DNA of 64,000 bases, from assembly GCF_035920365.1 (NCBI RefSeq), contig NZ_CP109150.1, positions 3,534,001-3,598,000 on the forward strand, written 5' to 3'. The DNA is from Micromonospora sp. NBC_01740. GTDB taxonomy: Bacteria; Actinomycetota; Actinomycetes; Mycobacteriales; Micromonosporaceae. The notes under the pieces are model-generated. The model was not told the origin of the DNA and made no database searches. It saw only the letters and a list, made by a program, of their open reading frames with translations. The position numbers were made by a program, and so were the translations under genes. Positions 19,954 to 43,011 of the stretch are shown here, piece after piece; position 1 is the first letter of the stretch, and the number at the start of each line of letters is the position of its first letter.

Positions 19954-21480
19954 TCAGAAGGGCCACCGGTCGCGGGACCCCGCCTCGATGAGCGGAATCA
20001 TCGCGAACGCGGCGTCGGAGAGGCCGCCGAACGTGTGCCGGTTGCCGGTCGCCGGCGCGTGCCCGACCCGGTATCCGGCCAGGTTCCAGGTGTACACCGG
20101 TATCCGCGCCGGCACGACGGCCGTGACGTCTGCCGCGCCGTGCCAGTGCGCCTGCTCGTCGGTGAGGATGACCACCCGGTCGTGCCGGTCGTAGTGGTCG
20201 CGCACCGCCTTCTCGGTCTGGGTCCCGGCGCCGTAGAAGTAGCCACCCTCCTTGAACCGGCGCACCGCCGCCAGCACCGACTCACCGGCGACGGCCGGGA
20301 ACACCGTGCTGGCGTTGGAGAACGACACCACCGTGGCGTCCCGCGCGCGGGCGGCCAGCGCGAGGCCGAACACGGTGGCCGCGTCCCAGCAGCGCAGCGT
20401 GCCGTCCTTGCTGAACGCGCTGTTCATCGACCCCGACGTGTCGATCAGAACCAGGGTCCGCCCGTCCAGGGCGGGCACGTGCGCCAGCGCCTGCTGCAAC
20501 GCCCGCTCCAACGGGTACGCCCACCGCAGGCTCGGTGCCGCGTTGTACGCCGACAGGTACCGCATCGGCAGCACGCGCGACCGGGCGACCTCGCCCGGGT
20601 CGGCCAGCCTCGCCGCCACGGCCTCGGCGACGGTGTCGCTGACGCCGGCCCGGTCGAAGTTGCGCAGGTTGCGCAGCAGCGCCAGGTAGCCCATGGTCGG
20701 GATGATCGCCTCCCACGCTGCGGCGTCCATCGCGGTCTGCCGCCAGCCCGCGAGGGCCTCCCAGGTCATGCCGGCCGCGCCCAGCACCGCCGGGTCGGTG
20801 ATCTCCACGCGCCGCTCGACCGGCAACGCCATGAGCTCGGCCCGCGCCGCCAGCATCGTGAGGGACCCGGGCAGCGGGTTGTCGCGCTTGTGCCGGCGGT
20901 CCAAGGCGTGCCGGAAGAGGTCGCCCTGCCGCGCGTCCCTCGCTGTCGGGTGGGTCAGGTCGATGACGTCGCCGAACCGCACCGGGCTGCCGTCGGCGTC
21001 GTACTTGAGCAGGCTCCGCTCGTGGTACAGCCGCGTCACCGCGTCGGCGATGCCCCGCTTGACCGGCTTGGGCATCGCCCGGCCGTGGCGACCCAGCCAG
21101 TACGCGAGGGCCTCGCCCGGCTCGTCGGCCCGCTGCAACGCGGAGTCCACCACCGCCCGGGAACCGGGGATGCCGGCGGCGACCTGCGCGCGGGCGCCCT
21201 CCAGGGCGGCCACGACGGATGCGGACCGCAGCATCGCGCCGGTACGCAGCCACCGCACGAAGCGCCCGAACCAGTCGGGGTCGGCGACGGCCACGGCGGC
21301 GACCAGCTCGCGGAACCGGGAGTCCCGGTCGGCGGCGCCCTCGTAGAAGGTGTCCTCGCCGACCATGTTCGACACGCCCAGCAGGAACAGCTCGGCCCGT
21401 GGCTCGCGGACGAAGCCGGTCGCGCCCTCGGCGGTGACGGGCAGCTTGGCGCGCCGCAGCTTGAGGTTGAACTTGGCCAT
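19954..21480 (-). CDS. rsr: Ro60 homologue (TROVE domain plus vWA domain) RNA-binding protein
   Basis: 508 residues. The N-terminal TROVE HEAT ring runs to about residue 330 (RAELFLLGVSNMVGEDTFYEG, RDSRFRELVAAVAVADPDWFGRFVRWLRT, MPKPVKRGIADAVTRLYHERSLLKYD, GYLALLRNLRNFDRAGV). The C-terminal von Willebrand A domain carries a MIDAS site TLVLIDTSGSMNSAFS (about residues 340-355), plus TVVSFSNAS and VVILTDEQ. ATG 21480 is preferred; an earlier in-frame ATG at 21525 lies inside the adjacent RNA gene. Bacterial Ro60 (Rsr) binds Y RNAs and works with exoribonucleases in rRNA maturation and RNA quality control under stress. Four Y-RNA-like genes lie just upstream on the same strand, which strongly supports this role. 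Confidence 0.95.
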   Translation of the reverse strand: MAKFNLKLRRAKLPVTAEGATGFVREPRAELFLLGVSNMVGEDTFYEGAADRDSRFRELVAAVAVADPDWFGRFVRWLRTGAMLRSASVVAALEGARAQVAAGIPGSRAVVDSALQRADEPGEALAYWLGRHGRAMPKPVKRGIADAVTRLYHERSLLKYDADGSPVRFGDVIDLTHPTARDARQGDLFRHALDRRHKRDNPLPGSLTMLAARAELMALPVERRVEITDPAVLGAAGMTWEALAGWRQTAMDAAAWEAIIPTMGYLALLRNLRNFDRAGVSDTVAEAVAARLADPGEVARSRVLPMRYLSAYNAAPSLRWAYPLERALQQALAHVPALDGRTLVLIDTSGSMNSAFSKDGTLRCWDAATVFGLALAARARDATVVSFSNASTVFPAVAGESVLAAVRRFKEGGYFYGAGTQTEKAVRDHYDRHDRVVILTDEQAHWHGAADVTAVVPARIPVYTWNLAGYRVGHAPATGNRHTFGGLSDAAFAMIPLIEAGSRDRWPF

Positions 21481-21513
21481 CGCGTACCCCGTGTGGGTGG
21501 AGCGGAAGGCGCG

Positions 21514-21666
21514 ACCGCACCGCACACCCGAGACCAGAAGTCGGCGACGGACCTGTCCGCCGCTCTGCCGCTTGAGCCAGCCGCCCGAAGGCGGCGGAGG
21601 ACTCGAACCTCCAACCTGCGGATCCCTGAAGTAACCGTCACCTGCGCACCGGGCGTGCGGCGTGGT
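21514..21666 (-). ncRNA. Y RNA-like RNA D (YrlA type, tRNA-mimic), nearest rsr
   Basis: Read on the minus strand, the ends pair over 11-17 bp (21650-21666 with 21514-21530, G-U pairs and one mismatch). An inner helix GGTGACGG pairs with CCGTCGCC. The linker GGTGCGCAG is shared by all four copies and resembles the Ro60-binding strand of animal Y RNAs (GGUCCGAAGG). The loop is a permuted tRNA mimic: T-arm GGAGGTTCGAGTCCTCC (21596-21612), acceptor-like hairpin GCCGCC-TTCG-GGCGGC (21580-21595), then a D-arm-like TGGCTCAAGCGGCAGAGC. It ends 34 nt before the rsr ATG. It has no anticodon arm, so it is not a tRNA. Confidence 0.82.
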
Positions 21667-21667
21667 C

Positions 21668-21763
21668 GCGCCTCCCGAGATCGGAGCCGGCGACGGACGG
21701 CCTCTTCAACGGGGTGCGGGCACCCCTCCAAGATGTAACCGTCGCCTTCGCACCGGGAGGTGC
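21668..21763 (-). ncRNA. Y RNA-like RNA C (short form without tRNA mimic)
   Basis: About 96 nt. Outer stem CCTCCCG pairs with CGGGAGG (21754-21760 with 21671-21677) and extends with mismatches. Inner helix GGCGACGG pairs perfectly with CCGTCGCC. The linker GGTGCGAAGG is the closest of the four to the animal Y RNA sequence GGUCCGAAGG. Instead of a tRNA-like loop it has TTACATCTTGGA and a small GGGGTGCCCGCACCCC hairpin. A promoter (21771-21800) ends 7-8 bases before its 5' end. It abuts RNA D, so C-D are probably one transcript. Confidence 0.75.
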
Positions 21764-21770
21764 GGGCACG

Positions 21771-21800
21771 ACCGTAGCGGTGGCGCCGCCTCGGGGGCAA
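21771..21800 (-). promoter_or_regulatory. Promoter P2 for Y RNA pair C-D
   Basis: On the minus strand: -35 TTGCCC (21800-21795), an 18-bp spacer, -10 TACGGT (21776-21771, TANNNT), then 7 bases to the 5' end of RNA C. The -35 sequence and spacer length are identical to promoter P1, while the spacer sequences differ, which argues for selection. Confidence 0.7.
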
Positions 21801-21842
21801 CGAGGTTTGCCGCCCGGTGACCGGGGCCGGAAATGACGGCCA

Positions 21843-21985
21843 CGCCGCGCACCCGAGACCAGAAGGTCGACGGCGGAAGGGCTATCGCTCTGCCAGCTGA
21901 GCTACCAGCCCCGGAAGGCTGGAGGGGACTCGAACCCCCGACCCATAGATGAAGTATCCGCTGTCTACGCACCGGGTACGCGGCG
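21843..21985 (-). ncRNA. Y RNA-like RNA B (YrlA type, tRNA-mimic)
   Basis: Outer stem of 13 bp (21973-21985 with 21843-21855, one G-U). The inner helix GACAGCGG/CCGCCGTC has one mismatch. Shared linker GGTGCGTAG. The loop contains the best tRNA mimic: T-arm GGGGTTCGAGTCCCC (21924-21938), acceptor-like CCAGCC-TTCCGG-GGCTGG hairpin (21905-21922), and a D-arm TAGCTCAGCTGGCAGAGC nearly identical to a genuine tRNA D-arm. The order T-arm, closed acceptor, D-arm is a circular permutation of tRNA, the arrangement of YrlA RNAs. It starts only 3 nt after RNA A ends. Confidence 0.82.
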
Positions 21986-21988
21986 CGC

Positions 21989-22144
21989 GCACCTCCCGAG
22001 ATCGAAGCGGCAACGGAGACTGGCCCTCGCGGGCCAAGGTGACCTGGGCTGCTGGTCGACACCGCATTTCGGCGGCGGCGGGATTCGCACCCGCGTCTCC
22101 CCGTTGGAAGCGGAAGTAGCCGTTGCCTGCGCACCGGGAGGTGC
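21989..22144 (-). ncRNA. Y RNA-like RNA A (T-arm plus GNRA hairpin variant)
   Basis: Outer stem GCACCTCCCG (22135-22144) pairs perfectly with CGGGAGGTGC (21989-21998). Inner helix GGCAACGG/CCGTTGCC is perfect. Shared linker GGTGCGCAG. The loop has a T-arm GCGGGTGCGAATCCCGC (22078-22094), but its D-arm region has diverged and it adds a strong TGGCCC-GCGA-GGGCCA hairpin (22021-22036). It is therefore a variant effector module. The first RNA of the array, preceded by promoter P1 and about 43 nt after the stop of the gene at 22187. Confidence 0.78.
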
Positions 22145-22150
22145 CGGCCG

Positions 22151-22180
22151 AAGGTAGGCGACCGGTGCGGAAGTGGGCAA
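22151..22180 (-). promoter_or_regulatory. Promoter P1 for Y RNA pair A-B
   Basis: On the minus strand: -35 TTGCCC (22180-22175), an 18-bp spacer, -10 TACCTT (22156-22151), then 6 bases to the predicted 5' G of RNA A at 22144. It matches P2 in -35 sequence and spacing. Confidence 0.7.
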
Positions 22181-22186
22181 GCCAGT

Positions 22187-22642
22187 TCACTGCCGCAGCC
22201 CCAGCGTGTCCTCCTGGGTGGCCCCCGGCAACCACCGGGCCAGCTCGCGGCGTAGCACACCCGGGCCTGGCGTCATGCCGGTGAGCGGCACCACGATCTC
22301 GTACGGGCGGCTCTGCCCGTACCCGGCCCACTGCCATCGCCTCGACCAGTCGATCGCCAGGGTCGTGTCGCCGGGGCCCGACACCTCCAGTCGCTGGTCG
22401 TCGAGCCGCACCGGCAGGCGTGTCCGCTGGCTGCCTCTCGGTGGGGTTGGTAGCGGCGAGAAGTGGAAGACCGCGAGGTACGGCAGCAGCACCCACAGCC
22501 CGTCCCACCACAGCCGACCCCGCGCCAGGCTGACGAGGACCCCGATCGCTGCGGCGGCGAGCAGCCCCAGGGTCGTCCTCCGGACCAGCCGGAGGGCCGA
22601 CCGTCTGAACTCGACGGTGTGGGGTTCATCGGTGCGAGTCAC
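22187..22642 (-). CDS. Hypothetical membrane protein, 151 aa
   Basis: Unrecognised. GTG start at 22642 with AAAGGGG about 6 bases upstream; longer in-frame starts lack such a site. Two adjacent membrane helices (TLGLLAAAAIGVLVSLA and WDGLWVLLPYLAVFHF, residues about 22-62) precede a soluble beta-rich C-terminal part (RLPVRLDDQRLEVSGPGDTTLAIDW...YEIVVPLTG). This layout recalls YcxB/PH-like small membrane proteins, but I cannot confirm it. It lies immediately upstream of the Y RNA array on the same strand, yet the array has its own promoter. Confidence 0.65.
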   Translation of the reverse strand: MTRTDEPHTVEFRRSALRLVRRTTLGLLAAAAIGVLVSLARGRLWWDGLWVLLPYLAVFHFSPLPTPPRGSQRTRLPVRLDDQRLEVSGPGDTTLAIDWSRRWQWAGYGQSRPYEIVVPLTGMTPGPGVLRRELARWLPGATQEDTLGLRQ

Positions 22643-30727: not shown

Positions 30728-31980
30728 GTGCCAGCAACGGAGGAACCTTCCGCACGTCCGCTCCGTCTCGTCATCGCCGCGCACGCCGTGTCCACGTACG
30801 GCAGCTTCCTGAACATGGTGGCGCTGGGGCTGTTCACCCTGGAGATCACGGGCTCCGCCGTGTCCACCGGGATCTTCATGGCGGTCCGCCTGTGCGCCGG
30901 CGTCCTGATGGGGCTGGTCGCCGGCACGCTGGTCAGCCGGTACGCGCGGGCCAGGCTCATGATCGGCGGCGACCTGCTGTCGGCCGGTGCGCTGGTGCTG
31001 CTGGTCGCGATGCCGTCCGCCGCGCAACCGACCATGCTGCACGCGCTGGCCGTGCTCCTCGGCGGAAGTCAGACGCTGTGGGTGGTCGCGCTGCGCAGCG
31101 GGTTGCCCGCGCTGGTCGGCCCGGACGACCTGGCCCGGGCCAACGCGAACCTGGTGGCGGCCCGCTCGGTGGCCATGCTGCTGGGCTTCGGCAGCGCGGG
31201 GATCCTCGTGACCCTGTTCGGCTACCACGCCGCGTTCCTGCTCGACGCCACCTCGTTCGTGGTGTCCGCACTGCTGCTCTCCGCGGTCCGCGCCTGGCGC
31301 GTGGTGGGCCGCCCCGCCGGGCCGCCCACCAAGGGCCCCCGCCGCGGGGCGGGGCTCCGGCGCCTCCTGCCCTCGGTCGCCCCCGTGATCCTGGCCATGA
31401 TCGCGGTGCGGTCCGTCGACGCGTTCGGGTCCGCCTCCCACAACGTGGGCCTGCCGGTGTACGCGAACCTGGCCTGGCCCGACGCCCCCGCCGCGTTCGC
31501 CGCCCTGTTCACCACGCCCTGGGCGGTCGGCAGTCTCGTCGCCGGCCGGTGGTACGCCCGGCGGGCCGCCGGCACCTCCCGCCCGGGATCGCCGAGGGCC
31601 TTCGGCGTCGCCACCTGCGCAATGTCGCTGCTGTTCGTGCTCGCCTTCGCGGGGCCCCCGATCTGGCTGGTGGCCGTCCTGGCGCTGGCCGCCGGCATGG
31701 CGGACGGCTACGCCGAGATCAGCTACACCACCCGGTTGCAGACCGTCGAGCCCTCCCGTCTGCCGCAACTCATGGGCCTGGCCAGCACCGCGCAGAACGC
31801 GGGGTTCGGCATCGGCATGATCGTCAGTGCCTTCGCGCTCGACCGCCTGACGCCCCTGTCGGTGGTCGCGCTGGCGCACGGCCTGGCGCTCGCCGCCGCC
31901 GGTGCCTTCCTCATCTCCCACGCCCGCACGCCGGCGCACCGTCCGCACCGACAGAGAACGCAAGAAGTCGAGGTAGCACC

Positions 31981-31984
<4 letters not shown>
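30728..31984 (+). CDS. MFS transporter, probable exporter of the adjacent PKS-NRPS product
   Basis: 418 residues, about 12 helices, DHA3/enterobactin-exporter-like: AAHAVSTYGSFLNMVALGLFTLEITGSA, a loop with SRYARARLMIGGDLLSAG, and late helices GLASTAQNAGFGIGMIVSAFALDR. GTG 30728 gives a short N-terminus before helix 1; no strong ribosome site is visible. Its stop overlaps the GTG of the megasynthase (GTGA at 31981-31984), so exporter and synthetase are translated together. It likely secretes the product. Confidence 0.85.

Positions 31985-43007
<11,023 letters not shown>

Positions 43008-43011
<4 letters not shown>

Follow-up and report, generated by a model that had tools for sequence, protein, structure and literature searches.

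The closest described relatives of the RNAs analysed here are the YrlA RNAs (Rfam RF02553; Salmonella), which resemble the D, T and acceptor arms of tRNA and are substrates of DusA and TruB (PMC8394870). Like the units described below, YrlA has a basal stem formed by its two ends, is encoded beside Ro60/Rsr, and presents a T arm, a capped acceptor stem and a D arm in that order. Unlike them, it has no hairpin before the T arm in its Rfam consensus structure, whereas the heads studied here add an anticodon arm and a variable loop. A second Y RNA also lies beside Ro60 in the rsr-yrlBA-rtcBA operon (PMC7790460), but here there are up to five units per locus, and RtcB is found in 1 of 110 stretches. 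Fragments of Salmonella YrlA were undetected when an anticodon nuclease acted, and competitive inhibition was suggested (PMC7790460).

The permuted tRNA genes of red algae and archaea share with our heads a 3' half that precedes the 5' half and arms of canonical size in permuted order. Their junctions in C. merolae are at 20/21, 37/38, 50/51 and 59/60, and none of the junctions listed in the available part of the source is at 26/27 (PMC3978253), which is about where the heads studied here are opened; moreover, these heads have a capped acceptor and, as far as their sequences tell, no sign of re-ligation. Permuted two-piece tmRNA is likewise a bacterial permuted tRNA-like RNA (PMC3978253), but the scaffold and the Ro60 linkage found here are of the Y RNA type. 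The role of mycobacterial TROVE proteins is left open in the available text of PMC8628891. Judged from its sequence, the array described in this work consists of Y RNAs linked to Ro60 in which the tRNA likeness of the head takes in the anticodon arm as well. What appears to be new is the reading of the heads as permuted tRNA bodies that include this arm. No report of an anticodon arm in Y RNAs was found in the passages of the literature that the search covered.

The window locus

In the window, that is the whole stretch of 64,000 nucleotides analysed, four units, A to D, occupy 21521-22144 of the minus strand and immediately precede a Ro60 gene. Four Y-RNA-like units had been claimed there by the original prediction, and all four were placed in this interval by R1, a covariance model trained on 45 sequences that all come from outside the window (one of the 45, L052, is an orthologue of unit A). 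The R1 E-values are 2.4e-23 for A, 2.3e-24 for B, 1.6e-10 for C and 2.6e-22 for D; the next match within the 64 kb has E = 0.66, so the units lie far beyond chance. The features are as follows.

19957..21480, minus strand: Ro60 (TROVE + vWA) protein, 508 aa, ATG start
21521..21659, minus strand: unit D, Y RNA with YrlA-like head (R1 92.9 bits; Rfam YrlA 45.2 bits; MFE z -2.44)
21668..21763, minus strand: unit C, minimal Y RNA (R1 47.4 bits; MFE z -3.41; no Rfam YrlA match)
21771..21800, minus strand: promoter-like TTGCCC-N18-TACGGT before unit C (promoter motif scan)
21846..21982, minus strand: unit B, Y RNA with YrlA-like head, D arm GCTCAGCTGGCAGAGC (R1 100.8 bits; Rfam YrlA 45.2 bits)
21989..22144, minus strand: unit A, Y RNA whose head reads as a circularly permuted tRNA body (R1 96.9 bits; MFE z -0.60)
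22078..22094, minus strand: T arm of unit A, GCGGG UGCGAAU CCCGC (read from the sequence and orthologue comparison)
22099..22115, minus strand: anticodon arm of unit A, UUCCG CUUCCAA CGGGG (read from the sequence, 5/5 pairs)
22151..22180, minus strand: promoter-like TTGCCC-N18-TACCTT before unit A (promoter motif scan)

The units share a scaffold made of a long basal stem, a conserved internal loop (GGUGCGNAG / CUUGAUCUCGG) and an inner stem, which presumably binds Ro60. The inner helices predicted for units A (GGCAACGG/CCGTTGCC), C (GGCGACGG/CCGTCGCC) and D (GGTGACGG/CCGTCGCC, with a G-U pair) are present in the sequence, and that of unit B (GACAGCGG/CCGCCGTC) has one A-C mismatch. The recurring conserved block noticed at 21628, 21732, 21951 and 22113 is a 36-nt repeat family with exactly four copies, at these very positions. 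The basal stem of unit D can be extended to 28 bp (86% complementary; 21503-21677) by taking up the 3' arm of unit C, so that the C and D stems compete.

The heads differ. Those of A, B and D have tRNA-like D, T and acceptor arms, which are absent from C, a scaffold with a small hairpin and neither T nor D arm. The head of D consists of a T arm, a UUCG-capped acceptor hairpin and a D arm, without anticodon arm. Within the window, the anticodon arm is present in unit A only (5 bp, 7-nt loop, UCC at the anticodon position), in a head that also includes an extra GCGA hairpin. The T loop of unit A starts with UGC, at a place where the 13 other orthologues have UUC. The original interpretation, an array with three effector modules (a tRNA mimic, a GNRA variant and a minimal one), is supported in part. 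Unit A has a tRNA-body head, C is minimal, and B and D are YrlA-like.

The comparison with YrlA and the folding of each unit had both been proposed with the original prediction. With the Rfam YrlA model, D and B both score 45.2 bits (E 1.1e-8) and A scores 24.8 bits; none of them reaches the gathering score of 69, and C has no match. At gathering, YrlA had no match in the 11 relative loci scanned (11/110), and no Rfam family matched anywhere in the window, in which ARAGORN called no tRNA and no tmRNA gene was called. The MFE z-scores are low for B (-2.76), C (-3.41) and D (-2.44), but that of A (-0.60) means that this unit is not unusual by folding energy alone; its MFE fold draws a shifted pairing at the anticodon arm (22099..22115).

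The four units form two doublets, A-B and C-D, with TTGCCC-N18-TANNNT only at the leading unit of each. Both boxes of the two promoters originally proposed are present with a spacing of 18 (22180-22151 and 21800-21771). A strict sigma-70 scan of 21400-22400 reported no promoter and no terminator. Elsewhere in the window, a 4039-aa open frame (30892-43011) looks by eye like a hybrid natural-product synthase.

The Ro60 protein matches Pfam TROVE at 53.9 bits (cut-off 23), with its best stretch at residues 239-314, and a predicted model gives it the Ro60 fold with a vWA domain. Pfam PF25045 (vWA_Ro60) has no match to it at E<=0.001 and matches two distant Ro60 proteins; by this absence the window protein appears to represent a divergent branch. 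A second, classical-type branch (vWA_Ro60) occurs in the same bacterial family (L255:7727-9334 and L256:7045-8642). The L255 protein is 31% identical to that of the window over 245 columns, and the L256 copy is split over two frames; both adjoin the same kind of permuted-tRNA unit, but on a different scaffold.

Scaffold, promoter motif and Ro60 linkage in relatives

The scaffold was searched by script with one set of thresholds at 110 Ro60 loci, the window genome and near-duplicates included. It was found upstream of Ro60 in 106 of them, with 236 units in total: one unit at 31 loci, two at 37, three at 22, four at 15, five at one and none at 4. R1 detects a unit in two of the four unit-less loci (L068 and L110); only 202 bases upstream are covered at L033, and L088 stays without one. 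Both T and D arms were detected in 131 of the 236 units, a T arm only in 31 (among them window unit A, whose D arm missed the pattern) and neither in 74; when identical heads are collapsed, 215 remain.

The paired helices are conserved in relatives, as the original prediction required. In an alignment of 45 sequences with 39 pairs, 93.0% of cells are paired and 28 pairs show two-sided change; none of 500 shuffles scored as high, and slid controls gave 36-49%. In the basal stem the outer and inner helices have 90.4% and 89.4% of cells paired, with two-sided change in 14 of 18 pairs. This covariation, together with the R1 E-values, rules out chance pairing of the stems.

Among 101 genomes of the family, a strong R1 match (E below 1e-15) is present in 31 of the 35 with a Ro60 match, versus 1 of the 66 others. 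R1 was trained partly on these 101 genomes, so the positives are not independent, but the rarity elsewhere is. The four Ro60 genomes lacking a strong match are G010, G035, G046 and G071. In the one exception of the other kind, G070, a divergent TROVE protein lies beside the R1 match, and in G050, which matches R1 at a laxer cut-off, a divergent TROVE protein in two frames adjoins it. The covariance model led to two Ro60 loci overlooked by the protein search. For four strong R1 matches (G033:C3, G006:C18, G095:C22 and G083:C1), tblastn with two Ro60 queries detected no Ro60 within some 4 kb, which argues against strict linkage; the genomes of these orphan Y-type units (L257, L258, L259 and L260) carry Ro60 elsewhere.

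The promoter motif, defined as TTG(A/C)CN-N16-19-TANNNT ending 0-12 nt before the basal stem, precedes 39 of the 144 leading units, where shuffles predict 0.1, and none of the 92 following units, where 0.2 are expected, window units included; 105 of the 144 leading units are without it. In 54 of the 61 loci whose match begins at residue 1, a gap of 18-69 nt separates the last detected unit from the Ro60 start. The restriction of the motif to leading units and the short gap before Ro60 suggest that the window locus would give one A-B transcript and one C-D-Ro60 transcript.

The tRNA-like heads

Sequence comparison shows that many actinobacterial heads are whole tRNA bodies in permuted order. 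They present an anticodon arm, a variable loop, a T arm, a capped acceptor stem and a D arm, in that order. The body is open where D arm and anticodon arm would normally meet, at about tRNA positions 26/27; the Y stem enters at this point, and the acceptor end is closed by a short loop. Among 74 distinct heads with T and D arms and a T offset of 21 or 22, 68 fit a register of 5 bp and 7 nt for the anticodon arm, including 10/10 from Micromonospora-type loci. A rival helix pairing this region with the 3' linker was discarded, as its best 5-bp register accounts for 24/73 heads versus 68/74. Outside Micromonospora, 70 of 94 distinct T+D heads have at least 4/5 pairs in a stem counted from the UUC of UACUUC around a 7-nt loop; loop lengths of 3-6 and 8-11 give 6-19, and shuffles about 15%. 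A selection that is free of the stem, all 45 distinct heads with a T arm starting 22 nt after UUC, gave at least 4/5 pairs around a 7-nt loop in 40/45, and in 0-5/45 with other loop lengths. The anticodon loop of these 45 heads has C32 (in 32 heads), U33 (38), A38 (42) and A or G at 37 (41), and their variable loop is AGGUC, AGGUU, UGGUU or UGGUC in 30/45.

Taken alone, the anticodon helix has 85.8% of cells paired, against 28-56% when slid, and 23 two-sided cells, against 10.8 when shuffled; percentage paired, two-sided cells and score were each reached by 0/500 shuffles. The 7 further pair types are weaker evidence (reached by 13/500), and the number of pairs with two-sided change, 2, is not significant (170/500). 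The fourth pair switches between C-G (21) and G-C (19). The RNAalifold consensus left this helix unpaired.

Viral contigs were used as a hold-out: 66 of 80 loci had units, providing 130 heads absent from the host set, 84 of them with a T arm. With a T offset of 21 or 22, 31/40 fit a stem of 5 or 6 bp and a 7-nt loop with at most one mismatch. Loops of 3, 4, 6, 8, 10 and 11 fit 3-10 of 40; the 25 fits found for a loop of 5, and likewise for one of 9, result from the overlap between the 5- and 6-bp definitions. In a plain 5-bp test the 7-nt loop fits 14/21 heads at offset 21, 12/19 at offset 22 and 2/5 at offset 23, and the 9-nt loop 14/21 and 10/19 at offsets 21 and 22; at offset 20, 0/11 hold-out heads fit a 7-nt loop. 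In minimal and T-only heads the anticodon arm is not significant. Running ARAGORN on rotated heads was abandoned as proof of a tRNA body, since heads with a shuffled anticodon arm pass almost as frequently (278/415) as real ones (68/83), and 37/122 unrotated units also pass.

Other tRNA rules are followed. Among 70 heads with the arm, G37 accompanies G36 in 11/15, and A37 accompanies U36 in 28/31 and C36 in 13/15, as would be expected at m1G and t6A sites. The 7-bp acceptor stem lies 2 nt before the D arm, with at least 6 pairs in 87/122 T+D heads versus 0-14 when slid, and position 8 is U in 70/70 heads with a clear acceptor stem. The acceptor caps measure 3-8 nt in 59/70 heads, and NCCA follows the acceptor strand in 7/70. 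Anticodons differ between relatives, with 31 different triplets in 83 units (some probably off register), and U33 and A38 are largely kept.

The layout of unit A is common to 14 Micromonospora-type loci, window included (L003 and L037 read the same). Its loop is CUUCCAA in 6, CUCAUAA in 5 (among which L040 is printed one base shifted), CUCCGAA in 1, CUCUCAA in 1 and about CAUCCAAU in 1, and the D stem GACC...GGUC stays while this loop varies. The D arm of unit A resembles that of the genome's own tRNA-Glu (GTCGTCTAGCGGCCCAGGAC). Across 53 heads the anticodon agrees weakly with the nearest tRNA, whether this is judged by the acceptor (p = 0.004), the D arm (p = 0.069) or the variable/T part (p = 0.125), and identity of whole heads with particular tRNAs was set aside.

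tRNA arrays, phages and possible functions of the heads

Ro60 and its units were seen beside (at the 3' end), inside or about 2 kb after tRNA arrays covering many amino acids, in stretches hand-picked from R1 or context matches rather than surveyed: L098 (26 tRNAs), L249-L252 (22-32, leaving out calls inside Y units or Ro60), L255 (24) and L256 (28). Such arrays also occur without Ro60 nearby (L253, L254). Among 80 named loci, 7 have an ARAGORN call outside the scored units, 3 of which are units missed by the script (L076, L092, L103). In L249 all six R1 matches to positions 30-108 span a junction of neighbouring tRNA genes. Phages carry the system as well: 89 phage records match, and in five of the nine phage regions read, Ro60 lies inside a tRNA cluster (GiJojo, BRock, pSt2308, Alone3, Atuin). 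JustBecause and Neville have tRNA genes within 2.5 kb, and in VanLee and Frankenweenie a Y unit is the sole annotated tRNA. Among GiJojo, Alone3, VanLee and Frankenweenie, Y units carry the annotations tRNA-Arg(cct), -Ser(gct), -Arg(tct) and -Pro(tgg) (deposited tRNA genes at L240:2269-2343, L248:2274-2347, L244:2126-2197 and L247:2173-2263). Gene finders and annotators thus mistake some Y RNAs for tRNAs, and deposited phage tRNA lists contain Y RNAs. In JustBecause an annotated RNA ligase (L246:1729-2481) lies between the R1 matches (1325-1455 and 1487-1650, the first overlapping an annotated tRNA-Cys) and the phage Ro60. In Atuin the best R1 matches (L243:4397-4833) are downstream of Ro60, not upstream. 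RtcB is directly upstream of Ro60 in L025; with one RtcB query and stored flanks of up to 1.5 or 5 kb, it adjoins Ro60 in 1/110 loci. As 90/101 family genomes have RtcB, its co-occurrence is uninformative and was dropped as a signal.

We consider it probable that the window holds a Ro60 ribonucleoprotein locus in which a shared scaffold bears exchangeable heads, the head serving as a tRNA bait. The units would be cut out of, or protected within, the A-B and C-D-Ro60 transcripts as separate RNAs, and the basal stem would dock on the Ro60 ring. The head, which in its present form would not be chargeable, would act as a tRNA look-alike that binds tRNA-acting enzymes (modification, cleavage, repair, decay) and either recruits them to Ro60-bound RNA or draws them away from it; anticodon-arm heads would extend this bait to enzymes that read the anticodon loop. 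The heads might instead be a classic tether only, linking Ro60 to PNPase for the decay of structured RNA, with the anticodon arm a neutral by-product of head borrowing. This is quite possible, though we doubt it: the Rsr-Y RNA-PNPase function is known in Deinococcus (PMC8394870, PMC7790460), and heads without detected T or D arm are common (74/236 units), but a neutral arm would be expected to erode. Instead, compensating changes preserve the stem, and U33 and A38 stay frequent while 34-36 vary. Leader control, in which Ro60 would regulate its own synthesis through unit D as part of the 5' leader of its mRNA, is improbable. The 18-69 nt that separate the last unit from Ro60 and the lack of the promoter motif before following units fit this idea, which is not exclusive of the bait but explains neither the tRNA heads nor the several units per array.

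That the units are permuted tRNA genes, whose Y stem is spliced out and acceptor cap cut to give functional tRNAs, is very improbable indeed. The permuted order with canonical arm lengths and the widespread RtcB ligase would suit it, but the caps are short, NCCA is rare, the anticodon position differs among unit A orthologues (UCC, CAU, CCG, CUC) and the T loop of window unit A lacks UUC. A decoy or sensor for anticodon nucleases, with arm-bearing heads cut or bound so as to spare real tRNAs or signal damage, is a doubtful explanation that nonetheless draws on several observations: the complete anticodon loops with many triplets, the position of Ro60 arrays in or next to tRNA arrays and in phage tRNA clusters, the ligases of JustBecause and L025, and the competitive inhibition by the YrlA tRNA-like domain proposed in PMC7790460. 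Against it, no nuclease was found linked to the locus (the search was not systematic), RtcB gives no signal, and Salmonella YrlA was not cut by the anticodon nuclease in the available account (PMC7790460). A wider version, unlikely in our view, is that Ro60 of actinobacteria and phages is equipped with a variable set of uncharged, permuted tRNA decoys, with their anticodon arms, that shield from, or sense, anticodon-loop damage, in a system that travels with tRNA resupply arrays. Its heads would arise from neighbouring tRNA gene junctions, at which the 3' part and the 5' part stand in the permuted order.

For the bait reading that we prefer, the whole-tRNA head, in which 33 and 38 are largely kept, 37 follows 36 and the anticodon is free, points to enzymes of the anticodon loop as partners of Ro60 RNAs, a proposal that can now be tested.
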